38,126 nt of DNA from a virus. Made by a program: the position numbers and the translations under genes. A model generated the notes under the pieces. That model was not told the DNA's origin and did no database searches. It worked only from the letters and a program-made list of their open reading frames with translations. The DNA lies in IMG/VR virus record IMGVR_UViG_3300009285_003751, positions 1 to 38,126 of that record; one strand, written 5' to 3'. Numbering within the stretch: the stretch's first letter is position 1; every line of letters begins with the position of its first letter. Below, piece after piece: positions 2 to 29,016 of the stretch.

Positions 2-3000
2 CAACTTATCAGCAATGTTACCACGCCAACGGAACATTGAGTCCAGCATACGACTCATCTCTGTGGTCACACGCTGAAGCTCTGTATCCTTCCAATCAAC
101 AGTTGCACGATGGAAAAGCTCTTCCATTGTGGGTGTGTGGATATTCTGCCTCGGGATTTCAATGCCCAGCAACGAACCCAGGTTACCTACCCAGTTAGTT
201 GCACTCTGTGGGTTATCCGGACTTACGAGTGTTGCATATATAGGAATATCAACTGCGAGCTTGTTGTGCCTTAGCAGACCGAATATCTTCTGGGCAACCA
301 CTTTCAGGTGCTCTTCAGATTCTGCTGTTATCTGGAACTGTGTGCCATTCCAACCCCATGCACCTGGGATACCAATTCCCACACCCAATCTCTTTCTGAT
401 TGGGTCATGAGATGCAAGGGTTGCAGCATCAACAGTCCACAGTGTCTTTCCATCCACCAGGGTGAATCCAATCAACTGTCCCTTGCCCCAGCCACCACCC
501 ATTACGCGACCAATGAATACCCTATTCATCGCCACTGACATGTTATCTTCAGGGTCAATGAGTCGGTACTCAGATATGAATTCAGGTGCTGCACCAGGCT
601 TGACCGCAGACGGCAACCCCAACCACTCTGCAAGGGTCTTAGATTCAAACACTTCACCGCCCCCACCACCACCCCCAACCACTTGACGGTTCTGCCATAG
701 TGTGATGGTGAAATCAAGCGGAACACCCTGGTCTTCGTACAAGGACTTCAATGCGGGCTCAATAATATCATCATCTTCCCAACCCACAAATGCAATGTGC
801 CGTGGTCCGACCACAGTCATATCCAGGTCACCACCTGGGTGGACATCTGTTGAAAATACCCACTTCGTAAAGGGCCGGTTCCAAATTCCACCAGCACGGA
901 TGTATGAACCCTTCATTACATGATTCTTTCCACCATGCTCAAGTGTGGAGTGGATTATATGTCTTAGCTCTGCCCAGAATGGATGTTCACCCGGGTCATG
1001 TGGAACCGCCGCCATGAACGGATTTGGCTCCGGAGCAACCTTACCTACTTCAGCCAAGAGCTCTGTGGGGTTCTTCGGCTTCCTGTTGAGCACTCTCTCA
1101 GTTAATTCTTTGAGTGCATCCCTGAAGCGTTCATCCTGTGATGTATCCAGATCAGGAACATCCAGTAGTGAGAAGGCGAGCTCGGCAAGCTGGTCTGGAG
1201 ACAAGTCATCTATATCAGCTGTGCCGGAGTTATACTTAGCTGCCAGCACTGAGAATGTACCCTTATAAGCTGCAATCTCTTCTGCGGTTAACCCCGAAAC
1301 ATTACCATCTTCTGTAAGGTCGATAGTCGGTTCCAGGTGCGTAAGGCTGTATGCCGGACCCCTGATACCTTCATCGATGTTGGTTACTTCGGCATCCCCA
1401 AGCCCGATACTAGATAACATTCGATTGAACTTCGCGAATGCAGTCTTCTCAACACCCTTACCCATGCTTACCATGAATGTATTACCTTCACCCTTGGTAA
1501 CTGTCAACCACTCACCAAGGGGTGCAAAGCGCTCAGCCATTGCTGGCTCTCCAGCTTCATGTGGAACATTGAACTGTCCAACTAGAATCATCTTGTTAGC
1601 TGGGTGCCACCCGAACTTGAGAGGCTCATCGCTCTTGAAGAATTCGTAATATGGAGTTAGGTCGTATGATACAAGTTTGCCATTGTCACTAACTATCGTA
1701 ACTGGGGGTGCATCATTTGCCAGATGTAAGAACTCACCCAAGGTACCAACCTGTCGACCATCTGGATACCCAACCATATCTGACATGTCTATGATTATCG
1801 AAGCATCATCTATGTCTACATCGTGCAGCCTGGATGCAATGTCTTCGGTAATGTTACCATTCACATAAATAGCCAGGAAATTAGGGGTCGGTCCAGTCTT
1901 TACGGTAAACATGTGCACGTTGCGTCTCGTACTATCTGCATCGGATGTAAGTATGCCAGAGTTCAATCTGTCTGCCATCCCTGCAACCTTCAGTTTATCA
2001 TAGAGCTCATCACCCAGCAGCTCACGCCACATTGCACCGAACCCAACATACCTTACGAAGAACTCTGGCCCACTATCCCACAATGGTCGGTACATTACAT
2101 ACATCATCGAACCTTCTACACCTGTCTTCAACGCCCCTAGTGACCTGTCAGACATCTCTTCTGACAAGATTTCGTCATACTTCGGCACCTGCAGGTATAG
2201 GTCACCAACCCACATACGGGTGGTCACCTTAGACGATGCCATAGATGATGCACTGTTTATACTACCCAGGTCTGTTAGCTGACGCCACTTCGAAAGGGCA
2301 TCTGGAATCAAATATGTCATGAACCAGTTAGCCATCAATACTTCAGTCGCTTCAGCACCAAGTAGGTGAACCACCATATCATGCATCATCTCAAAGATAG
2401 ATACCGAGTTGGTGGGGCGCATGTTGTACTGTGGCGAACCAGTAATATACAGGTATATCGCATGTACCTGTCTTGAACCAGGTGGAAGTATTGATAGAGA
2501 CTTAATCAGTTCTACTTCATTCATGAGCGATATCTCTGCTTCCTTAGACATCTTTGGTTCCACACCCGACCGTACCGCCTTCAGGGCTTCAAGGTCGTAC
2601 TTCATTATATCCCTCAAAGCCTTGTTCATAAACTCTACATGGGCAGGGTCTAGCAGTGTTTCATTCCACAATGTCTGTGCCCACGCAGTCATGTTCGATT
2701 GGATGCCTGGAACACCTTTCAAATCCATTATTGTGTCCCAGAAACGTTTGGCACCAGGCTCACCATAGAATGTTGTTACAGCACCCAGGGCATCAACACG
2801 TGCTTCGTTAAAGAACCTCGATAAGTAGAAGAGCACTGATTGCTTGAGACTTGCGTCTCCAGTAATGGCACCTGCAGCGATACGATCCCAGATTGACAAT
2901 AGACCTTCATCGCTAGCTACAATGTCTGAATAATCATTGAAGAGTTGTTGTATATCCCCAACGAAGTTGGTTTCGGTGGAGTACTTAGATGGCTGTGCCA

Positions 3001-6000
3001 TCCCCACTGCCCCAGGCGGGGTAGTATACACAGCTGAAAGGTTCATCAGCTCCCTGTAGAACTCTTCGATATCTTCTCTTGCAAAGGGTGGTTCTCTACC
3101 CACCGTGGCATCAGGAGATGCTGCATAGGCGTTACGAATTCCTTCTATGTAAAGTTCCATCATGAATGCTTCGAATGCTTCTCTTGCATGCCCCACAATT
3201 TCATCAGGATTGGATACGGAAAGCGCTGAACCATCACCAAATAACTTCAAGAGCCGTTGATCACTAACAGGCGGTGCAGCAAGCTCTGCGGTCTCACCAA
3301 ACAAACCCTTCTCTATGGGTGAGATTTCATCTATCCACTTACGTGTGCCGGGCTTCAACAACTTCCACATCCCCGACCGTGCCCACTTGATGAACTCCTT
3401 CTCCAACGCACCTTCATCCCAGATACGCTCAATGGCTTCACCTTCTTCACCCATGGGACTTATAGTCGATGGGCCGCCCTTGTAATAATAACCACCACCA
3501 CCTTCAAAGGTCATATACCCACCATGGAACTCCGTTCGCAGGTACCACAATATATCATCCTGGGCATCCAATGGTAACTCCGCAATACCCACAACGGGTG
3601 CCGCAGGTTTAGCCATATCAACCCCGCCCCCCCCCCTACGTGCCATTTCTCCAATTTGGTCAGCATCATAGCTCATGCGGAGTTCATCGATTGTGTACAT
3701 CTCGTCATTATCAGCATCATACCACAACCATTCATCCACGGTTTCATTCCATTCACCAGATCCGTATGTGGTATATACCCACCTGGAGAATGCAAGTGGT
3801 TGTCCCACGAGGCTTTCTGGGGTTGCTACTCCTGGATAGAGCTCCTTCTTCATCAATGATGTGATATAGTCCCTGATATATTCATATGTTTTGTTAAAGG
3901 CACTGTTGACTTCTTCCGGCGTCCGCCTTACAGTAAGTAAGCTATCTACGAAATTTTCGAATTCCTTCTTTAGTACACCATCTCCCACCTGCATATTAGG
4001 AATGTTACCTTCTATCCATAACAATCTCTCGGCAATCAACAAGCGGATTTCTCGTGGTAACCGGAACATTATGCTTTGGGCGGTAAGTGCAATCTCCAGC
4101 CCTTTCATCGGTACCATTCCCACCACTTGCATATATACCCCCTGTGAAGTCGAAGTTGAAAGACCTTCCAACATTGAAAAGTAGATGTTTGCAGTCAACC
4201 AATCATTGGCTTCTTCTTCCGGCATCATCTGTATGTACCTACGTGCACGACCAACAACCTCTCCAAGGAAACCTGTAAGGTCAAAGCCTGACCAGGGTAT
4301 CACTCCATCACCCAGGAACAGGAACGCTGCAATGGTTTCACGCATCGACTTGTATATATCGATAGGTACATAATTAACCACTTCGTTGTGGAATTCACGT
4401 TGATACTTCGTGAGCTCTTCAATAGGTGTGGTCTTATCGGCGAGCATATCTTCCAACACTTTCCCACGTTCGGCAACAAGGTCATTTAGCCCTGAAAGGT
4501 CTGGTTCAGGTGGGGCACCAGGTTCTACACCTGTTTCCTGTGCCAACATCTCACGGTAGATTCTTTCACGGTTATATGGACCAGCAGTACGAATCTCCTG
4601 CCACGCATCTTCACCATACATCTCGGTGAACTCCACAACAAGCTCTTCGAACGACAAGCTATCATACATTTCACGGATGGCAACCATCGTATCGCCGGCA
4701 TCAACATCTATGTCCCCAAATAACGATGACATATCCAGTCCACCAAGGAACTTTTCAGTTGCCCTATCAAACTCACCAGGGTGTTTCATTTGCATGAATA
4801 TCTGATACAGACTACCCATATCCGTTGAGTAAATCGGCGCACCATATTCATTCACTTCATCGTTACCTTCGAATTCTGGCAAGTACCAATGTTTAAGTCC
4901 ATGGTAGTCTGGTGCAGGAGTAATATCTTTCATCCATTCTTCGAACTCTGCACCATGACCAACCCAGGTTTCAAAGCCATTTACAACCCTTATGTCCAGA
5001 CCTTCGGCTGGGGCTTCGGGTGTGGAGGGAACTTCGATATCGGTGCCAGGAACCCTGCCTTGACCACGTTCGGCAGCTGCACGACCTAATTCGTCTAGAC
5101 CAGGCGCACCTGCCATGGTGGGTGGCTCTTTCTTTGTGATGATATCCCAAGCCATTGCCGGGTCCATAAGTGCAATCTGGTTAGATTCCCAACCCAACTC
5201 CTTCAGCTTGGTGCGCATACTCCCGGTAATCATCATTGGTACACCCTGCGCAACCTGCTCAGGGGTAGCAATTGTTGGGTCCTGGGCACGCATCTGGTTC
5301 ATTGTCTCAGCCAGATCGTCCTGTAATCCCAACAAACGTTGGGCTTCTATCACCAACGGATCATCAGGTGCGTAACTATTCTTTGCCATCCAGTCTGCCA
5401 ACCACTCTTCGGGGCAGGTCTTGGCATCCAATAACCCCTTTGTAGTATCTTCCCACACCTGAATGATTACATTACGGTACTCACCAAACTTGGCATCTAC
5501 TTCTGACAGGGCATCCTGTGGAGATATCTCCCCATTCATAACCCTGATTGTCAAGGGGTCGAGCTCTGAACGCAGGTTACGCATTACATCATTCACTGGG
5601 GTGTCAGGTGGTGCCATGTTACCGTAAAGGGTTCCAGGAGTAAGCATGCCGGGTGGGGGTAGTCCCACGTCGAACCACTCCAACACTTCTGCCCAGTTAC
5701 GGCGACGTCCACCCCTAATGTCTGCCGCCAACCCTGGCAGTCGTTGATTGGGGGGTAGACTATCTAACCAGTTTGCCAGCTTCCAGAAACCACGGTCGCT
5801 ATACAGGTAGCCTTCAAACAACTCCACAAATGTCTTGGCACGCTGAGATTGTTCAATAGCCGAAGATACCCCACCCCAGCGACGCAGCAACCCACCATAA
5901 CTCCACGTGTCGAAGAAACGTGCCGTTCGACTGGTACCGGTCATAAAGTCGTAAATACCCTGTGGCAGCTTCCTACCCGTGAGGCGGTAGATTCCTTGGG

Positions 6001-8827
6001 CAATACCACGTGGTGTACCAATGAATGGAATTGGAATCATTTCATTCGCAAGCATGGGTACGCCTTCTACCATATCATCCAACAGTTCAGCACCCATCAA
6101 CGATTGTACCACGTTTTCAGATATGTTCCACCCGAATATGTCTTTCATGTAAGCTTCAGCCTTACGTGCAAATCCAATATCGAAGTTCGGGGTTACGTCA
6201 GACACAATTGCATTGGCCCAGTTACCGTTAATGTTACCCAGGATGTACTTGGGATTGGCAAACAACCAGTCTTCCTTGAGTGCCCGCCCAGTCCAAGATA
6301 GCATCCTAGCCAACGACGGCGCACGTGGCACAATTCCCAGTTGTTTCTTATACATATCTGAGAATGCGCGTGAAACGTAGTGTGCAACCGTATAGGGGTC
6401 GTCCGCGCGTGTAAGTGCATTCTTTATCACGCCACCACGAATCGTATCATCGATAATGTCAGCATGGGCACCAAACTTTTCCAAGATATCCGATATATCC
6501 ATGCTGGGAGCGGTTTTCTCCATTCCCGTAATAGCATCCAGCAATTGTTGAACCCTGTTTGCGGGTAGGCGTTGCGTACTCAAAATCTGTGGGTCTTTCA
6601 ATAGCATACGTTGGAAGAACGTAATCGGGTCTGGGTCACCTGGTTGCATCGTACTGACCAATATCCGCAATGAATCGGCAACATGTTCAGACCACTGAAT
6701 GTGGATTGTCCGTTTGGAGATACCAAACATCCACATCCATGCACCGTTCTGTTCTTCGTAAATCTTACGGTAAATAACCCGCATGGTACTGGGTCGCTTA
6801 ATGTATGAGCCTATTAGCGAGCTCACACCCTTGGCAAGTAACTCTCCACCCGGGAACTGTAAGCGGTTCACCCACGTTCCAACCCCTGCAACTCGCTTCA
6901 ATTGGTTACCAGCGGTTAGCATCATCGGATCAGGAAGCAATCCCAGCCACAAACCTGGGTCGGTGAAGAAGTTAAAGTATAACTCAGACATCGGATCAAC
7001 TACTAGCCCACTTGTCTCAATCTCAAGTATTGATGCACCTTGCTCGGTGAGCGCTACCAGATTCTCCCACCTGGCGGCAATATCTTCATATGGTAGGAAC
7101 GGACTGGTAAAAGTTGCCATCATACCAGTGAGACCAGATGCCATGTAGATCGCATCATCCATATCCCTACCAAATGGTTCAGCTTTCGTTCCTGAAGGTA
7201 ACCCCAACACATACCCCCAGTTAATCTTTCCTTCTGGAGTACGAGTCATGCGTTCCCACTCCACCCTACGGTGGTAGAACATATCATCCCTAGACATTCC
7301 AGGGCCACCAAATGCTGAACCGCCCATCTCAGGCATCGCATACTGTTTACTGTACCACTCTGCATACTGGTCGGCAGGAATGAAGTGCCAACCCTGGTAC
7401 TCAGGTGCTGATCGTGGACCACCCATACGCCATGAGCCCATCTCACCTGTTTCGGGGTTCTGCACCAATGGATATGGACGATCACTCTTAATCATATCCA
7501 TCCAGAAACCACCAAGGTCATAGCCTGCCCCAAAGAAGAGCCCTGGAAGGAACGCCCGTTCTGGTATTTTTGCAATCCACGTTGTATAATACCCAAACCC
7601 TGCCACTGACTGGGCTACGAAGGTTGATGCCGCCTTACTGGCAGGGGTGTCCGCAAATGCAAACGGGTCCATAATACCCATCATTTGGTAGCTCACACCC
7701 GTGGGTGGGGGTTCGTTCAATACCATCCAATCAGGTACTTCACATGGAGTAAATAACTCTCCACTCATCATTCTGTTAAAGTATGCAGTAGTCTGTGGGT
7801 TGGGCTGCCAATACTGTGTTACAGGTATTAGCATCGGTTCACCCATGGCAGGCAACGCTGGTAAGAACGGTATGGCTAAATTACGCACGGGTGGCGCACC
7901 GGGAATCTGTGGTGCATCCGGTACCTGTGGTAGTCCCATATATCCCAGGTCACCCATTCTAGTGCGAAATACCAACATACTGTCTAACCACTCCATCCAT
8001 CCCAGTGGGGTGTATGGATTCTGTGCAACTTCGGTGAATCCCGTAAGGCGGGCCAGTTGGTAAACATTCTGCTCCTGGTCGTTGCGAGAGTTCATCGTCC
8101 TGGTCCATCTGTCGTACAAGTCATCAGGAGCCATATTCCGCCATGGGGTGGGTTGCATTGCAGCTGCATTGTTCAACGCTGCATATAACTGGTCCCCTGG
8201 AATATTTAATGTTGGAATTGGAAGCCCACCTGGACCGGTGGCAAACGTTCCAAATGGTTGGGCACCTTCCATCCCTGGGACGGGTGTACTAAATTGGGTT
8301 CCACCTTCACCCCCACCACCAGCACCAGCACCAGCACCGAAATCACCAGCCCCTGGAACCGGGGTACTTAATTGTCCCCCACCCTGCCCTTGCTGCAGGT
8401 TTTTCTGGTATGCTTCGAATGCACTCTGACCAACGGTCTTGGGCTGTTCGAAATTGGCAGCCCGCTGACCGGCCGGTAGGGCATTACGTAAGCCTTCGTT
8501 CAAGAAACCCCAATCTCCCTGTCCACCCGCACCCCTACCCCCCGCACCCGCACCAAACTCCATTCCGGTGGGGAACCGTGGGTTTTTAACAACACTGGGT
8601 GGTTGTGGTACAGCCCCGCGGGGCACTTGTGGTTCTACTCCACTTGTACCTGGTTCAATACCTAATAGGTCTGGGACATCAATTATATCACCAGGTTTCA
8701 TCATCCTACCAGGTTGCCAGCCGTTGTAACTTGCCAGCATTGAAAAGTACCGCTGGTTACCATACATCTCACCAGCAATTCTCTCCCAGCTATCCCCAGG
8801 TTTAACTGTGTACTGTTTGATCCACAT
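2..8827 (-). CDS. giant LysM-containing virion protein, partial (C-terminus beyond left edge)
   Basis: On the minus strand an ATG at 8827 opens a frame that I read without a stop for about 2,942 codons to the window edge. GGAGG at 8836-8840 is a good ribosome binding site, and the gene follows the portal stop by one base. Residues about 5-53 form a LysM domain (YTVKPGDSWERIA near the start, KPGDIIDVP at the end), a fold that usually binds peptidoglycan. A Gly/Ala/Pro-rich linker follows, with a STPVPG motif seen twice near 8280-8370. The rest looks like a long helical phage protein, including NPKYILGNINGNWAN near 6225-6265, a type of segment found in giant internal or ejected virion proteins. 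I infer a virion protein that meets the cell wall during DNA entry. I found no convincing RNA polymerase signature, so an N4-type virion polymerase is not supported. Function beyond LysM is unknown. Confidence 0.8.
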   Translation of the reverse strand, partial: MWIKQYTVKPGDSWERIAGEMYGNQRYFSMLASYNGWQPGRMMKPGDIIDVPDLLGIEPGTSGVEPQVPRGAVPQPPSVVKNPRFPTGMEFGAGAGGRGAGGQGDWGFLNEGLRNALPAGQRAANFEQPKTVGQSAFEAYQKNLQQGQGGGQLSTPVPGAGDFGAGAGAGGGGEGGTQFSTPVPGMEGAQPFGTFATGPGGLPIPTLNIPGDQLYAALNNAAAMQPTPWRNMAPDDLYDRWTRTMNSRNDQEQNVYQLARLTGFTEVAQNPYTPLGWMEWLDSMLVFRTRMGDLGYMGLPQVPDAPQIPGAPPVRNLAIPFLPALPAMGEPMLIPVTQYWQPNPQTTAYFNRMMSGELFTPCEVPDWMVLNEPPPTGVSYQMMGIMDPFAFADTPASKAASTFVAQSVAGFGYYTTWIAKIPERAFLPGLFFGAGYDLGGFWMDMIKSDRPYPLVQNPETGEMGSWRMGGPRSAPEYQGWHFIPADQYAEWYSKQYAMPEMGGSAFGGPGMSRDDMFYHRRVEWERMTRTPEGKINWGYVLGLPSGTKAEPFGRDMDDAIYMASGLTGMMATFTSPFLPYEDIAARWENLVALTEQGASILEIETSGLVVDPMSELYFNFFTDPGLWLGLLPDPMMLTAGNQLKRVAGVGTWVNRLQFPGGELLAKGVSSLIGSYIKRPSTMRVIYRKIYEEQNGAWMWMFGISKRTIHIQWSEHVADSLRILVSTMQPGDPDPITFFQRMLLKDPQILSTQRLPANRVQQLLDAITGMEKTAPSMDISDILEKFGAHADIIDDTIRGGVIKNALTRADDPYTVAHYVSRAFSDMYKKQLGIVPRAPSLARMLSWTGRALKEDWLFANPKYILGNINGNWANAIVSDVTPNFDIGFARKAEAYMKDIFGWNISENVVQSLMGAELLDDMVEGVPMLANEMIPIPFIGTPRGIAQGIYRLTGRKLPQGIYDFMTGTSRTARFFDTWSYGGLLRRWGGVSSAIEQSQRAKTFVELFEGYLYSDRGFWKLANWLDSLPPNQRLPGLAADIRGGRRRNWAEVLEWFDVGLPPPGMLTPGTLYGNMAPPDTPVNDVMRNLRSELDPLTIRVMNGEISPQDALSEVDAKFGEYRNVIIQVWEDTTKGLLDAKTCPEEWLADWMAKNSYAPDDPLVIEAQRLLGLQDDLAETMNQMRAQDPTIATPEQVAQGVPMMITGSMRTKLKELGWESNQIALMDPAMAWDIITKKEPPTMAGAPGLDELGRAAAERGQGRVPGTDIEVPSTPEAPAEGLDIRVVNGFETWVGHGAEFEEWMKDITPAPDYHGLKHWYLPEFEGNDEVNEYGAPIYSTDMGSLYQIFMQMKHPGEFDRATEKFLGGLDMSSLFGDIDVDAGDTMVAIREMYDSLSFEELVVEFTEMYGEDAWQEIRTAGPYNRERIYREMLAQETGVEPGAPPEPDLSGLNDLVAERGKVLEDMLADKTTPIEELTKYQREFHNEVVNYVPIDIYKSMRETIAAFLFLGDGVIPWSGFDLTGFLGEVVGRARRYIQMMPEEEANDWLTANIYFSMLEGLSTSTSQGVYMQVVGMVPMKGLEIALTAQSIMFRLPREIRLLIAERLLWIEGNIPNMQVGDGVLKKEFENFVDSLLTVRRTPEEVNSAFNKTYEYIRDYITSLMKKELYPGVATPESLVGQPLAFSRWVYTTYGSGEWNETVDEWLWYDADNDEMYTIDELRMSYDADQIGEMARRGGGGVDMAKPAAPVVGIAELPLDAQDDILWYLRTEFHGGYMTFEGGGGYYYKGGPSTISPMGEEGEAIERIWDEGALEKEFIKWARSGMWKLLKPGTRKWIDEISPIEKGLFGETAELAAPPVSDQRLLKLFGDGSALSVSNPDEIVGHAREAFEAFMMELYIEGIRNAYAASPDATVGREPPFAREDIEEFYRELMNLSAVYTTPPGAVGMAQPSKYSTETNFVGDIQQLFNDYSDIVASDEGLLSIWDRIAAGAITGDASLKQSVLFYLSRFFNEARVDALGAVTTFYGEPGAKRFWDTIMDLKGVPGIQSNMTAWAQTLWNETLLDPAHVEFMNKALRDIMKYDLEALKAVRSGVEPKMSKEAEISLMNEVELIKSLSILPPGSRQVHAIYLYITGSPQYNMRPTNSVSIFEMMHDMVVHLLGAEATEVLMANWFMTYLIPDALSKWRQLTDLGSINSASSMASSKVTTRMWVGDLYLQVPKYDEILSEEMSDRSLGALKTGVEGSMMYVMYRPLWDSGPEFFVRYVGFGAMWRELLGDELYDKLKVAGMADRLNSGILTSDADSTRRNVHMFTVKTGPTPNFLAIYVNGNITEDIASRLHDVDIDDASIIIDMSDMVGYPDGRQVGTLGEFLHLANDAPPVTIVSDNGKLVSYDLTPYYEFFKSDEPLKFGWHPANKMILVGQFNVPHEAGEPAMAERFAPLGEWLTVTKGEGNTFMVSMGKGVEKTAFAKFNRMLSSIGLGDAEVTNIDEGIRGPAYSLTHLEPTIDLTEDGNVSGLTAEEIAAYKGTFSVLAAKYNSGTADIDDLSPDQLAELAFSLLDVPDLDTSQDERFRDALKELTERVLNRKPKNPTELLAEVGKVAPEPNPFMAAVPHDPGEHPFWAELRHIIHSTLEHGGKNHVMKGSYIRAGGIWNRPFTKWVFSTDVHPGGDLDMTVVGPRHIAFVGWEDDDIIEPALKSLYEDQGVPLDFTITLWQNRQVVGGGGGGGEVFESKTLAEWLGLPSAVKPGAAPEFISEYRLIDPEDNMSVAMNRVFIGRVMGGGWGKGQLIGFTLVDGKTLWTVDAATLASHDPIRKRLGVGIGIPGAWGWNGTQFQITAESEEHLKVVAQKIFGLLRHNKLAVDIPIYATLVSPDNPQSATNWVGNLGSLLGIEIPRQNIHTPTMEELFHRATVDWKDTELQRVTTEMSRMLDSMFRWRGNIADKL

Positions 8828-13363: not shown

Positions 13364-13393
13364 CTAGTAATTTAGAAATAGTGGTTATATAAT
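13364..13393 (+). promoter_or_regulatory. promoter for the three-repeat HTH gene
   Basis: CTAGTAATTTAGAAA (13364-13378), nine bases, then TATAAT (13388-13393). The element differs from the exact copies at 13181-13167 (minus) and 18964-18978 at only two of 15 bases and has identical spacing. A small inverted repeat CACTA/TAGTG overlaps it. Confidence 0.62.
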
Positions 13394-14034: not shown

Positions 14035-14191
14035 AAAGTTGATCATATTCCGGAAAATTACCATATTCCGGAAGTTGATCTTAATAGTATGTTGATCTTA
14101 TTCCGTTACTTGACCAAGTTGATCTAAATACTATTCTGATATACATTACCAAGTTGATCTAATTCGGAAGTTGACCTTATTCGTCTGGATG

Positions 14192-14204
14192 GTGGGCAGC
14201 CCAC
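14192..14204. promoter_or_regulatory. inverted repeat GTGGGC-A-GCCCAC
   Basis: Perfect 6-base arms around one central A, flanked by GGT and ATACC. It lies in the largest gap between iterons, suggesting a second protein site in the same region. Confidence 0.45.
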
Positions 14205-14278
14205 ATACCACCCCAAGTTGATCAACTTCGTATTCTGATGTATTATACCAATTTGATCTAAATACTATTTTGAGTATA

Positions 14279-14295
14279 TTCCGGAATGTCCGGAA
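14279..14295. promoter_or_regulatory. palindrome TTCCGGA-ATG-TCCGGAA
   Basis: Perfect 7-base arms. The core TTCCGGAA also occurs at 14048-14055 and 14066-14073, so this looks like a dimeric operator used several times in the region. Confidence 0.5.
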
Positions 14296-14302
14296 GTAGA
14301 CC

Positions 14303-14923: not shown

Positions 14924-15391
14924 ATGATGTCCAATACCCCCTTAGACCTTCCCCCGTACTACGACGAGGCTGTACGCGCCTGGGGTGCGCATGCACTCCC
15001 GCCCATGAAAGAGATTGAGTGCAAGGTAATAGACTCAATGACCGGCTGCCTGGGCAAGGCACACATCAGCTGGATCAACGACAACGCGTGTACCATCCAG
15101 CGACTACTCATCACCATCAGCCGACCTTGGTTCGCTGCAATCCGCACCGAAGCAGGTGAGCCGGCTATGCTCAGGGAGATACGCAAGACAATCATCCACG
15201 AGCTGGCACACATCGCTACTCGGTATATCTACGGACCACGTACCCAACCCCATGGTATCGAATGGGGTCGACTAATGGCCAAGTGTGGGCTACAACCCTA
15301 TGCCCGCCATTGGTACGATATCCACACCAAGGTACCAGGCACCGCAGTTACATGGAACGATGTTGTCGGAACCATGCGTAATGGTAGATGA
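14924..15391 (+). CDS. SprT-like zinc metalloprotease
   Basis: A 155-residue protein with the zinc-protease signature HELAH (residues 92-96) and a third candidate ligand H110 in PHGIEWGRLMAKCG, the arrangement of the SprT/Spartan family. In cells Spartan proteins cut DNA-protein crosslinks; phage members are poorly understood. The beta-rich N-terminal half, with HISWINDNACTIQRLLITIS, fits the SprT fold. Two adjacent ATGs (14924, 14927) follow AGGAG, and the second has the better spacing. It begins the run of small accessory genes and may act on host or DNA-bound proteins. The motif is clear; the target is unknown. Confidence 0.72.
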   Translation: MMSNTPLDLPPYYDEAVRAWGAHALPPMKEIECKVIDSMTGCLGKAHISWINDNACTIQRLLITISRPWFAAIRTEAGEPAMLREIRKTIIHELAHIATRYIYGPRTQPHGIEWGRLMAKCGLQPYARHWYDIHTKVPGTAVTWNDVVGTMRNGR

Positions 15392-17879: not shown

Positions 17880-18242
17880 ATGGCTACAGAAGTTTCAGCA
17901 CCACCCAAGTCTGACGGGAGGGTCAACTTTAACACCGCGGTTCAGTTGTCAGGTCTGACACCGCAATACCTTCGTCGCTTGACCGTTGACGGCAAGATCC
18001 CAGACGTGATCAAGAACGAAAAGGGCGCCTGGAGGTACGATGCCAACTCCGTCAAAGAGTGGGCAGCTAACCGCACCCCTCGCGCGCGCGGACTACAGGA
18101 TGGCCGGCAGGCCTACAAAGTCCGTCTGAACGCTGAAGAGTTCGATCTCGTTAGCAAGGCGCTCAAGCCCAGCGGCATCACTCTCCAGCCTGCCTACAAG
18201 CGGCCGGCTAAGCCCGCAGAGAAAGAAGTCGCCGCAGCGTAG
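17880..18242 (+). CDS. small HTH DNA-binding protein, paralogue 2
   Basis: 120 residues from ATG 17880 behind AAAAGGAGA. Residues about 15-62 (VNFNTAVQLSGLTPQYLRRLTVDGKIPDVIK...WRYDANSVKEWAANR) have the MerR/excisionase winged-helix pattern. Then comes DGRQAYKVRLNAEEFDLVSKAL, comparable to DGRNKFIYYATPDELARANKAL in the protein at 14486, and a basic Ala/Pro/Lys tail. It precedes the DNA metabolism operon. It could control that operon or coat phage DNA; which one is not decided by the sequence. Confidence 0.65.
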   Translation: MATEVSAPPKSDGRVNFNTAVQLSGLTPQYLRRLTVDGKIPDVIKNEKGAWRYDANSVKEWAANRTPRARGLQDGRQAYKVRLNAEEFDLVSKALKPSGITLQPAYKRPAKPAEKEVAAA

Positions 18243-18252
18243 TTGATTGGTC

Positions 18253-18291
18253 AGGCGAATCGGACCGGTCCCCACCCGTACTGGTTCGCCT
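18253..18291. promoter_or_regulatory. inverted repeat AGGCGAATC / GGTTCGCCT
   Basis: Nine-base arms with one G-T pair, enclosing the palindrome GGACCGGTCC (18262-18271). It lies just after the HTH paralogue stop and could be a terminator without a T run, or an operator. Confidence 0.4.
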
Positions 18292-18299
18292 CTCCATCT

Positions 18300-18341
18300 G
18301 GACTCATAACAGGTCTTATTCCTTTCTCCTGTTGTGGGTCC
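18300..18341 (+). promoter_or_regulatory. 14-bp leader hairpin upstream of the resolvase gene
   Basis: Arms at 18300-18313 (GGACTCATAACAGG) and 18328-18341 (CCTGTTGTGGGTCC) pair over 14 positions with two G-U pairs. The 14-base loop is almost all pyrimidine. GTGGAGAG, the ribosome binding site for 18355, follows directly. It may be a translational control element. Confidence 0.5.
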
Positions 18342-18354
18342 AAGTGGAGAGTAT

Positions 18355-18957
18355 ATGGCCAATCTAAACGAGCACGAACACGAACACGAACCCCAACCTA
18401 ATAAACCCCTTGTGATAGGGATAGACCCTGGAAAAACTACCGGGGTCTGTGTGCTTCAGGTGAATGGATTCTATAAGCCTGCGCCCAGGGGTGGAGTTGA
18501 ACGGTTCTCCAAGCGTGGTGGTAGATGGGATGTGACTGTTGCGTCCTTCACCGAGCTGGAGTTCGATGACCGTTTCCACCTGAAGGATATAATCGAGAAG
18601 CTTTCCACGTTACCATTCACAGATAGGGCGGTAGTCATGGAGAGTTTCAATCTATATCCAGGTGCGGCCCAGGCCCAAGGACGTATCATGTCCGACTTTC
18701 CATCTATACAGGTCATTGGTATGGTACAATACGTATGCAATGAACTCGGATATGCGCCACCTATAATGCAACCACCGTCTGCAAGGAAGACAGTGCAAGT
18801 GTTACAGAGTGACCGCCGACTCATCAGTGGATGGAAACACGCAGTAGATGCTTACAAGCATGCACGGTATTACATCGTGACGCGTGGACATGAACGTGGA
18901 TGGGCACTGGAGCCAACTGGGAATGAAAACACCACTACCACTCCAACAGAACCATAG
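18355..18957 (+). CDS. RuvC-like Holliday junction resolvase
   Basis: 200 residues from ATG 18355 (GGAGAG upstream). After a His/Glu-rich start (EHEHEHEP, residues 6-13) comes IGIDPGKTTGV (21-31), the first strand of the RNase H fold with catalytic D24. E96 in VVMESFNLYPG and D165 in HAVDAYKHARYY fill the other acidic positions. Such enzymes cut four-way DNA junctions formed in recombination and remove branches before packaging. Position at the head of the recombination and replication genes agrees. The acidic residues are assigned by eye. Confidence 0.75.
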   Translation: MANLNEHEHEHEPQPNKPLVIGIDPGKTTGVCVLQVNGFYKPAPRGGVERFSKRGGRWDVTVASFTELEFDDRFHLKDIIEKLSTLPFTDRAVVMESFNLYPGAAQAQGRIMSDFPSIQVIGMVQYVCNELGYAPPIMQPPSARKTVQVLQSDRRLISGWKHAVDAYKHARYYIVTRGHERGWALEPTGNENTTTTPTEP

Positions 18958-18963
18958 CCCGTA

Positions 18964-18993
18964 CTTGTATTTTAGAAAGTCTTACCTTATAAT
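18964..18993 (+). promoter_or_regulatory. internal promoter for the LAGLIDADG gene
   Basis: CTTGTATTTTAGAAA (18964-18978), nine bases, TATAAT (18988-18993). The 15-base element is identical to that of the TerS promoter, with identical spacing. It lies seven bases after the resolvase stop, and its expected start point is around 18999-19001. Confidence 0.72.
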
Positions 18994-19023
18994 CTTAGTA
19001 ATTCTAAGATTTGGAGGTAAGAC
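18979..19023 (+). promoter_or_regulatory. hairpin sequestering the LAGLIDADG ribosome binding site
   Basis: Outer arms GTCTTACC (18979-18986) and GGTAAGAC (19016-19023) are perfectly complementary, as are inner arms AATCTTAG (18991-18998) and CTAAGATT (19004-19011), with a 5-base loop. GGAGG (19013-19017) lies within the 3' side and the ATG follows at 19024. The 5' arms lie in the promoter, upstream of the expected start point. Confidence 0.75.
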
Positions 19024-19575
19024 ATGATTACTGAAACGGAGTACGCCTATCTTGCTGGTATCATCGATGGTGAAGGTCATATCCAACCGTGGGTACAGTA
19101 TGCTGCATATGGTAACAGTATTAACGTCAAGGTTAACATATCCAATAAGCACCTGGGTGTCCTAGAATGGATTGCTGAACGTTGGGGTGGATTCGTTACC
19201 ATCCACAGGGATAGCAAGGGTCATGAATGCTTTCAGTTGACCATTGCGAGTAAACAACTAACAGAGATGTTTCGTGGTATACTTCCGTACTCTATTATAA
19301 AGAAGACAGAAGTTGCCGCATCTCTGCGTATCCGTGAGCTCATTGAAAGCAACCCATCAAGGAACAAGGTGGACCTAAAATCAAAGCTCGAAAGGGCTGA
19401 GTTGGGCATCGCAATAATCGACGGAACCCGGTCAAGGTCTTCTGTTGAGCGCCCCTCAAAGTTCTATGATAGTATGGTTGAAATACGTGACGAGATCAGG
19501 CAAATCCTACAAGATGAGAAAGGTGGTGGTATGGCCGATGAAGAAACCTCTTCCTTTACAGCAAGTGGCGATTGA
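19024..19575 (+). CDS. LAGLIDADG homing endonuclease 1
   Basis: 183 residues with one LAGLIDADG motif, YLAGIIDGEGHI (residues 9-20), so it should work as a homodimer. The following part (WIAERWGGFVTIHRDSKGHECFQLTIASKQLTEMF) has the usual beta-saddle pattern. It lies free-standing between the resolvase and helicase genes, and its last 38 bases overlap the helicase start. It has its own promoter and an RBS-hiding hairpin. Homing enzymes cut DNA of relatives lacking the element and so spread themselves. An internal ATG at 19531 also has a ribosome site. Confidence 0.85.
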   Translation: MITETEYAYLAGIIDGEGHIQPWVQYAAYGNSINVKVNISNKHLGVLEWIAERWGGFVTIHRDSKGHECFQLTIASKQLTEMFRGILPYSIIKKTEVAASLRIRELIESNPSRNKVDLKSKLERAELGIAIIDGTRSRSSVERPSKFYDSMVEIRDEIRQILQDEKGGGMADEETSSFTASGD

Positions 19576-20894
19576 CCTCGCTGCCCAACGTAATGTGCTC
19601 ATTGCGGATGAGTGCGGCTCGGGGTAAGACCCTTATGGCAATCGAAGCTGCCAAGTGTACCGGCACACCAGCCTTGGTAATCTGTAACAATACTGCCAAG
19701 GAGCAGTGGGACTTCTTCATCCGCGAGCAATCGGCAGGGGCACAGGTGGTAGTCTTGGGCTCTGCTGGTCGTGGAGAGTGGGAAGGCTTGATTGGTAGGG
19801 GTGGTGGCGGTGTGTGGGTTGTGGTACACTACGAAGCAATACAGTATATCTGGTGGAAGCTGTTGAACTATCCGTGGAAGACTGTTATTGTAGATGAAGC
19901 CCATAGAATCAAGAACCGTAGAGCCAAGCAGACACTATACATAAAGCGGATTGGCAATATGGATACAAGGAAGATTGCCCTTACTGGTACGCCCATGGAG
20001 AATCATCCTGGTGACCTATGGTCAATCATCAACTGGTTGTACCCCAAGGCATTCAGTAGTTACTGGACATTCGCAGAACAGTATGTGGAGTTCAAACAGA
20101 ACTGGCAAGGGTTTAGATACCCTGCTGGTGGTAAGAACCTTGAACAACTGTCTACGATTGTTGCACCATTCTACCTACGTAGGATGATGAAAGACATTAG
20201 AGCTGACCTGCCCGACCTACTTCCGCCCACCACTGTGTGGGTCGACCCCGAGCCGGCGCAAGAAGACCTCCTATCAGAAATGCTCAACGCTCGTGATATC
20301 GAAACGGAGGTAGGCGGGCAGGTTTTCGTAATACCAAATGCACTCACCAAGTTAGTCAGGGCACAGCAGATTTCTTCTCATCCACCGATACTCGGTCTGA
20401 GTGCCCCCTGTGCTAAGCTGGACTGGTTGAGTGATTACATCGAAGACAACCCTGATGAGACAATGCTCATCTTTACCAAGTTTCGTGAGACATGTCAACA
20501 CATAGCTAAGAAGTTCAACGCGAGTTACATTATTGGTGGTGAAGATATGACCATGACTGCCTTGGATTGGTTCGAAGGTCGTAAGCGCCTGTTGGTATGT
20601 ACCATCGCCGCTGGCGGTGCGAGCCTGAATCTCCAACGTGCCAACACTGTTATCTTCTACGACCTTGAATGGTCAACCATCCTATACGACCAAGCGTTGC
20701 ACAGGGTTTATCGTATCGACATTCGTGACCATAAGAATGTCATACGGCTCGTTACCAATCACAGTGCTGATGAACTAGTCCTTAAGGCATTGGAACATAA
20801 ATGGGACAACATTAGATTGGTCAACGAGTTCATCCGTCTATTCGCGGATGTAGGGGTGGGTGCGGATAGCGGAGTTGATGGGAAAGGAGGCTAG
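19538..20894 (+). CDS. SNF2-type DNA helicase, frame broken in Walker A
   Basis: Reading from ATG 19538 gives KKPLPLQQVAIDLAAQ (a Q-motif-like start) and NVLIADECGSG, then TAA at 19625. The next frame continues KTLMAIEAA and stays open to 20894. Joined, Walker A is GSGKT and the protein is about 451 residues. Other motifs are intact: TVIVDEAHRIKN, KIALTGTPMENHPGDLWS, LLVCTIAAGGASLNL and DQALHRVYRID. SNF2-type phage helicases remodel or unwind DNA in replication and recombination. One surplus G in the run at 19621-19624 explains the break. It may be an assembly error, a real mutation, or programmed frameshifting. Confidence 0.8.
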
Positions 20895-22002: not shown

Positions 22003-22775
22003 GAATCTTGGATATCAACTCCGTACCACATATGCGGATACTTCTGTATGGGCTACCTGGTAGTGGTAAGACCCGCACAGCCGTCTCCGCGACCCTTGAC
22101 CCACGGCTAGCGCCCTGCTTAGTGCTGAACGCAGCAGGCAATCCGCTCTCGGTCAGGGACTATCGACCCCAGCCAACAGTACTTCAGCTGGAACAACTCT
22201 CCGATTTGAATGACCCCTATGACTGGCTCGCTCGTGGCCAGCCCATGGACGACCCCATAGCACAGGCTCTTGGACTGAAGGAACCGTTCAAGACAGTAGT
22301 GTTAGATGGCATCACAGAGATTCAACGGATGAGCTTCAATGAGCAGCGCGGCATTGTAGGACCTGGTAGTTTCCCTACACGTGTCGGTCGCGACCACTTC
22401 TACAATACCCTGGGTCAGATGACGGTAATGGCGAATCTCTTCTACAGTCTGCCACTACATGTTATCATGACGGCATTGGAAGCAACTGAGCGCGATGCCA
22501 AGACCGATTGGATATACCATAGCCCACTCCTGTGGGGTCAATCGGACGTAGAAGTAGGTGGGTACGCCTATGTAGTTGCCCGTATGATGAACTTTGCGGC
22601 AGTGGATGCGAAGGTCGCCAAAGCATTGGAGAAGGAAGATGATGTCTACTACCTGGCTATCTTCAACCCCACTGGCAGGTTCTATGCGAAAGACCAGTAC
22701 TTCGCGCTCGGTGAGTACATGGTCAATCCGACAATGGCCCAAGTGTACGACAGGATACTGGAAGTCAAACACTAA
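21999..22775 (+). CDS. Sak4-like RecA-fold ATPase
   Basis: 258 residues with Walker A GLPGSGKT (18-25) and Walker B TVVLDGITE (99-107), the layout of the AAA_24/Sak4 group of short RecA-like single-strand annealing or recombination ATPases. It is translationally coupled to the nuclease by ATGA and followed by a DUF669-like gene, a combination often seen in phage recombination modules. It likely works on single-stranded DNA during recombination-dependent replication. Confidence 0.78.
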   Translation: MRILDINSVPHMRILLYGLPGSGKTRTAVSATLDPRLAPCLVLNAAGNPLSVRDYRPQPTVLQLEQLSDLNDPYDWLARGQPMDDPIAQALGLKEPFKTVVLDGITEIQRMSFNEQRGIVGPGSFPTRVGRDHFYNTLGQMTVMANLFYSLPLHVIMTALEATERDAKTDWIYHSPLLWGQSDVEVGGYAYVVARMMNFAAVDAKVAKALEKEDDVYYLAIFNPTGRFYAKDQYFALGEYMVNPTMAQVYDRILEVKH

Positions 22776-28611: not shown

Positions 28612-29016
28612 ATGATTAGTACCGAATACGCTGCTGGGTTCTTTGATGGGGAAGGAAGCATCACCTTAATGAAGCCTCCCCCATGGGGTGCTGTCCGTAT
28701 CCTTCGTGTTGTTGTGGTCCAAAACGATCGTAGACCGTTAGATTTGTTTATGGAACGTTGGGGTGGACACGTTAGGCAACTACGAAAGTGCTATCAGTGG
28801 CAAGTTGCAACAGTTAAGGCGACAAGTTTTTTAGAAGATGTCTTACCACATCTAATCGTGAAACATTACCAGGCGGAGCTTGCATTGAAGTATCGAAGCA
28901 TGATGAGACCATATGGTGGTAAGTGGGAAGGTCGAAAGTACACTGAGGAAGAACTGGTAAAGTTTCGTGATATAGAAGAAAAGATGATACTCTCCAAGAG
29001 AGGAGTTTCGACATGA
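28612..29016 (+). CDS. LAGLIDADG homing endonuclease 2
   Basis: 134 residues, short for the family, with one motif YAAGFFDGEGSI (6-17) and then the typical FMERWGGHVRQLRKCYQWQVATVKATSFL core. It starts three bases after the folE stop and ends by overlapping the dpdA-like start as ATGA, so it is translated inside the modification operon. It resembles homing endonuclease 1 in the ERWGG segment. Unlike that gene it has no promoter or hairpin of its own that I can see. Confidence 0.8.
   Translation: MISTEYAAGFFDGEGSITLMKPPPWGAVRILRVVVVQNDRRPLDLFMERWGGHVRQLRKCYQWQVATVKATSFLEDVLPHLIVKHYQAELALKYRSMMRPYGGKWEGRKYTEEELVKFRDIEEKMILSKRGVST

Follow-up and report, generated by a model that had tools for sequence, protein, structure and literature searches.

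A putative read-through lock with a built-in promoter in front of a free-standing LAGLIDADG homing endonuclease gene of an uncultured tailed phage

How can a homing endonuclease gene that lies directly behind a co-directional phage gene be translated from its own message and not from that of its neighbour? This question is raised by a hairpin that the first-pass annotation had placed over the ribosome site of such a gene. The window, that is the whole stretch of DNA analysed here, is a virus record of 38,126 bases from an uncultured tailed phage, recognizable by portal and terminase matches, a DNA polymerase A and queuosine-type genes. Its rightward genes begin at about 13.4 kb and include, in this order, a gene similar to RuvC/Holliday junction resolvases (18355-18957, plus strand; PHROGs 1981 and 1770), the endonuclease gene and a SNF2 helicase gene. 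The stop codon of the co-directional resolvase-like gene is located 66 bases 5' of the endonuclease ATG and 21 bases 5' of the stem, and a terminator scan revealed no terminator-like site between the two genes. Protein scans of IMG/VR and of genomes with the endonuclease, resolvase, helicase and terminase, together with a blastn search against phage records, found no close relatives, and no relatives without the endonuclease insertion were found in IMG/VR, genomes or phage records.

The endonuclease gene (19024-19575, plus strand) encodes a free-standing protein of 183 amino acids with a single LAGLIDADG motif (YLAGIIDGEGHI), which belongs to PHROG 5046 (E 2.5e-13). The protein alone stays below the Pfam cut-off; the profile of its family (alignment A1), searched against the PDB, matches I-MsoI (5e-25) and also I-CreI. 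PHROG 5046 is labelled HNH, yet its family profile matches these two enzymes, and the motif, the PHROG and the profile matches bear out the earlier assignment to the LAGLIDADG class. Because a single motif is combined with a match to the I-MsoI/I-CreI family, the enzyme is predicted to be a homodimer. The phage carries a further LAGLIDADG gene, also of PHROG 5046, at 28612-29016; it starts directly after the preceding stop and is tightly packed between the GTP cyclohydrolase gene and the next gene.

Downstream, the start region of the helicase gene (ATG 19538, within the 3' end of the endonuclease gene) and its body (19572-20894) are in different frames; the shift of +1 falls precisely within the Walker A motif, at GGGGTAAG, with a stop at 19625-19627 (segment 19538-19630). 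This split may be a real mutation, a programmed frameshift or a sequence error. The sequence GGTAAGAC, which has five occurrences, was considered as a shared element and rejected, since at 19623 it codes for G-K-T in the Walker A motif of the helicase; at 22065 it probably codes for a Walker A G-K-T too.

According to the computed fold, RNA that reads through from the resolvase-like gene forms a nested hairpin of 18 pairs at 18979-19023. The outer stem consists of 10 pairs, including one G-U, between GTCTTACCTT (18979-18988), an anti-Shine-Dalgarno strand lying within the promoter spacer, and GAGGTAAGAC (19014-19023), which carries most of the Shine-Dalgarno sequence. A 2x2 internal loop separates it from an inner stem of 8 pairs between AATCTTAG (18991-18998), which overlaps the -10 box, and CTAAGATT (19004-19011), and the inner stem is closed by a loop (18999-19003) that contains the predicted transcription start. 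The first-pass annotation had described at least 16 nested pairs, a GGAGG within the 3' side and an end on the base preceding ATG 19024. The nesting, the positions of the arms and the end point agree with the fold, while the number of pairs has to be corrected to 18; moreover, only the GAGG of the Shine-Dalgarno sequence (GGAGG, 19013-19017) is paired, its first G (19013) being in the internal loop. This ribosome site, with an ideal spacing of 6 bases from the ATG, is therefore predicted to be paired in the read-through RNA, as in the T4 type of lock.

The fold has a minimum free energy of -36.1 kcal/mol (z -5.2; 18950-19060), which was equalled by none of 200 shuffles, and when the upstream side alone was shuffled (18958-19004) the observed energy was matched in 0 of 2000 cases. 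Among ungapped palindromes, the dyad with its centre at 19001 ranks first in the window, with 17 of 20 positions, against peaks of 13-15 in eight simulated 38-kb sequences. Opening the Shine-Dalgarno sequence is computed to cost 10.2 kcal/mol in read-through RNA at all lengths tested; in RNA beginning at 19000 the cost falls to 2.1 kcal/mol (RNA to 19140) or 5.7 kcal/mol (to 19060), and what is left is due to weak pairing with the coding region, a point that counts against a lock. The stem does not resemble an intrinsic terminator: it has no U tract and the ATG follows it directly. No Rfam covariance model matched the window at gathering, and none matched 18200-19100 up to E 5.

The 5' strand of this hairpin coincides with a putative promoter (18965-18993, plus strand), composed of a -35-like TTGTAT (18965-18970), the conserved TTTAGAAA (18971-18978), nine further bases and TATAAT (18988-18993), with 17 bases between TTGTAT and TATAAT. 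A plain sigma-70 scan of the window did not list it, because TTGTAT is a poor -35 element. The call gains support from the fact that the same 29-base block, TTGTATTTTAGAAA-N9-TATAAT, is found in three copies at identical spacing in the window, where none is expected, and that the two other copies are divergent promoters at operon starts, both in a control region near 13.15-13.39 kb. In the whole-window search, the one at 13180-13152 (minus strand) is identical in 14 of 14 positions of the upstream block and in the -10 box, with 0 mismatches, and is directed leftward, towards the terminase and portal genes; the one at 13365-13393 (plus strand), TAGTAA-TTTAGAAA-N9-TATAAT, has 2 mismatches in 20 positions and reads right into early/DNA-metabolism genes. 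This recurrence is the strongest argument for a promoter at 18965-18993, and the position of TATAAT over the 5' arms is as first annotated. In IMG/VR the element matched three contigs, none of them a close relative. A match with 3 mismatches at 7562 (plus strand) was not counted, being antisense within a long open frame; this frame (2-8827, minus strand) has at least 2942 amino acids, begins with a LysM-like segment and runs off the left end of the window.

Judging from the position of the -10 box, transcription would start at about 19000, where A19000 lies in the hairpin loop, 7 bases past the end of TATAAT. The entire 5' strand of the hairpin is located upstream of this predicted start, as in the T4 type, and since it is promoter DNA it would be absent from the promoter's own RNA. 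The T4 late promoter (TATAAATA, read with gp55) is not present; TTGTAT-17-TATAAT takes its place. The perfect sibling at 13180-13152 drives the terminase/portal operon, which hints at late activity, though weakly, because the third copy at 13365-13393 faces early-type genes. In the leftward structural operon the -10 box of the perfect sibling ends 6 bases before ATG 13145, so that its message would be leaderless. The noncoding stretch 14040-14300 contains repeated AAGTTGATC(TAA) with dyads, which are possibly replication iterons or regulator sites.

From the arms, their strength, the computed pairing of the Shine-Dalgarno sequence and the repeated promoter element, all demonstrated here, we infer a read-through RNA, a start site and an effect on translation, and we consider it probable that the locus is a read-through lock in the style of T4 I-TevI and segB, with a built-in promoter as its key. 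A polymerase coming from the resolvase-like gene would produce a message with both arms, which would pair and bury the Shine-Dalgarno sequence, so that the endonuclease would not be translated from this RNA. A polymerase starting at TATAAT would instead produce a message that begins in the loop, lacks the 5' strand and leaves the ribosome site open. Translation of the endonuclease would thus depend on its own promoter, irrespective of the activity of the upstream operon. A ribosome terminating on the resolvase-like gene should not melt the stem, because the stop codon is 21 bases upstream, to judge from the size of a ribosome footprint. The lock is favoured by the lack of a terminator after the resolvase-like gene and by the second LAGLIDADG gene (28612), which has neither hairpin nor promoter of its own; it is weakened by the near-perfect dyad, which would also suit a DNA operator.

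An operator would explain the palindrome at the DNA level: the endonuclease itself or another dimeric repressor would cover the -10 box and the start and shut its own promoter. This alternative is serious, as the enzyme is predicted to be a homodimer, and single-motif LAGLIDADG relatives such as I-CreI and I-MsoI bind, as dimers, to pseudo-palindromic sites about 22 bp long. Moreover, the near-perfect dyad is centred on the predicted start and overlaps the promoter, and both strands fold. However, it is odd-centred, with a 5-base loop, whereas in I-CreI-type homodimers the two-fold axis falls between base pairs; the inner site is found nowhere else in the window, the dyad is missing at both sibling promoters, and an operator gives no reason why the outer arm should complement a correctly spaced Shine-Dalgarno sequence. 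We therefore regard an operator in place of the lock as unlikely; because the dyad is odd-centred and the Shine-Dalgarno strand is used exactly, it would probably not be the whole explanation. The I-TevI operator is a precedent (PMC2988022) and, by analogy with that gene, operator and RNA lock could coexist here.

The leader of the resolvase-like gene offers a different comparison, being a second ribosome-site lock in the same phage. At 18245-18365 (plus strand) it folds into a three-way junction of -69.7 kcal/mol (z -8.0), in which a 23-pair arm (18290-18351) pairs the complete Shine-Dalgarno sequence GGAGAG. The folded stretch has 140 bases; owing to several G-U pairs the opposite strand reaches a z of only -3.1, which makes the structure look like a feature of sense-strand RNA. 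No recognizable promoter was found inside 18245-18365 and no Rfam model matched this leader. Since this stronger lock has no promoter, a hairpin at a gene start of this phage does not by itself indicate a promoter switch, and another common use of leader hairpins may exist. The endonuclease hairpin could then be one of a set that acts by the same means, for example through cleavage by RNase III or through a phage protein that binds RNA, and its overlap with the promoter would be incidental; the resolvase leader and a further strong hairpin, upstream of the gene at 14924, would suggest this. Yet the two locked leaders have nothing obvious in common in sequence or in shape, the stem before the endonuclease gene, with 10+8 pairs, is short for an RNase III substrate, and it would have to be accidental that the predicted start falls exactly in the loop, which makes a shared route quite unlikely. 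Finally, the hairpin might be functionless, a product of chance or a decayed terminator or insertion scar: homing endonuclease loci turn over fast, and no homologue confirms that the arms are conserved. Against this, none of the 2000 shuffles reproduced a fold that is also the best dyad of the window, a terminator would have a U tract, and Shine-Dalgarno sequence, promoter and loop coincide; we hold this origin to be very improbable.

The preferred reading, a lock with an internal promoter, has known parallels. RBS-sequestering hairpins have been described for I-TevI, I-TevII, I-TevIII, segB and Aeh1 mobE (PMC2988022) and the same lock design for e, soc, 49 and I-TevI (PMC3014915), so that the earlier comparison with T4 I-TevI, e and soc was correct. 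In I-TevI, I-TevII and I-TevIII the regulatory hairpin has an internal late or middle promoter (PMC2988022, PMC3014915). As in these genes, the endonuclease Shine-Dalgarno sequence is buried here in the read-through RNA and the predicted RNA from its own promoter lacks the 5' arm; but the T4 I-Tev genes encode GIY-YIG/HNH enzymes, lie in group I introns and have late promoters that require the phage sigma gp55, whereas here a free-standing LAGLIDADG gene of an unrelated phage has a TTGTAT/TATAAT-type promoter. T4 segB and Aeh1 mobE are likewise free-standing endonuclease genes amid phage genes with an RBS-sequestering hairpin, but they encode GIY-YIG and HNH enzymes of T4-like myoviruses, and the review makes no mention of LAGLIDADG (PMC2988022). 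T4 e, soc and gene 49, the latter encoding a Holliday resolvase, are late genes that are kept silent in read-through RNA made early (PMC3014915). Like gene 49, the resolvase-like gene of this phage has a locked Shine-Dalgarno sequence; unlike it, no internal promoter is recognizable. Outside phages, the IS10 transposase is likewise protected from read-through transcription. In IS200 a stem that forms in RNA reading in from outside blocks the ribosome site of the transposase, again a selfish gene, but this transposon, which is not a phage homing endonuclease, additionally has a terminator stem (PMC3196728). The locus would therefore work like the T4 system without being a member by descent, because TTGTAT-17-TATAAT replaces the T4 late promoter. 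In the literature searched, descriptions of the design concern T4-like phages with their GIY-YIG/HNH endonucleases.

Of the LAGLIDADG loci that we screened, 80 came from IMG/VR and 66 from genomes. Locked starts were no more frequent in the LAGLIDADG class than among other genes, so that the lock is not a trait of the family, and the promoter-in-hairpin design was rare across about 110 LAGLIDADG loci; both points weigh against the lock. The strong cases among the screened loci were the window and a LAGLIDADG gene of an unrelated phage (L047/L048; lock of -48 kcal/mol, z -4.2), whose start is further upstream than first assumed and which has no clear sigma-70 box; in weaker cases, among them L033 and L077, a -10 box is in the hairpin. 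Two Streptomyces phage LAGLIDADG genes (L008 1066-1129, L009 1141-1204) have a terminator-like hairpin followed by a -10-like box 6 bases before the ATG, and their start codon takes part in a short hairpin; this is perhaps another way of excluding read-through.

IMG/VR was also scanned for the pattern CCTCC-TATAAT-GGAGG-ATG, giving at least 120 stretches against 97 for a non-complementary control; after removal of near-duplicates, 74 pattern and 74 control stretches were left among the matches listed. Among these listed matches, the arms extended at least 8 pairs past the seed in 11 of 74 stretches versus 1 of 74 controls (p 0.005), a -35 element of 5/6 or better accompanied 6 of 17 long-arm stretches versus 8 of 74 (p 0.02), and a co-directional gene lay 20-130 bases upstream in 14 of 19 versus 21 of 52 (p 0.02), while nuclease genes did not differ significantly (3/19 versus 4/50). 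Long-arm cases among the matches listed precede genes for a dUTPase (L193), an HNH endonuclease (L189), an endonuclease VII-like protein (L109) and a LAGLIDADG protein of the same PHROG as the window's endonuclease in an unrelated phage (L141), where a CCTCC...GGAGG hairpin encloses a perfect TTGACA-18-TATAAT and a co-directional gene lies 73 bases upstream. Two other arrangements were observed: an opposite-strand gene pair (L186) with a near-identical hairpin of more than 20 pairs, TATAAT inside and the Shine-Dalgarno sequence in an arm, which resembles a leader that is repeated or mobile, and a capsid-like gene (L020 1139-1219) whose Shine-Dalgarno sequence is locked by CCTCC...GGAGG without TATAAT. 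The survey suggests that the architecture recurs and is good evidence of this rather than of its frequency, because the sample is small and the counts are lower bounds. Together with L141 and L047/L048 it also speaks for the lock in the window.

The chances are about even that promoters inside RBS hairpins form a recurrent, convergent gate across phages, with sigma-70-type promoters placed just behind co-directional genes. The appearance of the design in an unrelated phage, where both the endonuclease family and the promoter, of the sigma-70 type, differ from those of T4, and again in other phages, suggests that genes lying inside the operons of other genes generally need to silence translation from read-through RNA. 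A searchable sequence signature results, namely the complement of the Shine-Dalgarno sequence, a -10 box and the Shine-Dalgarno sequence itself. If the gate is indeed recurrent, such locks would shield from read-through, far outside T4 as well, both selfish nucleases and further genes with timed expression, represented in the sample by LAGLIDADG, HNH, endonuclease VII-like and dUTPase genes.
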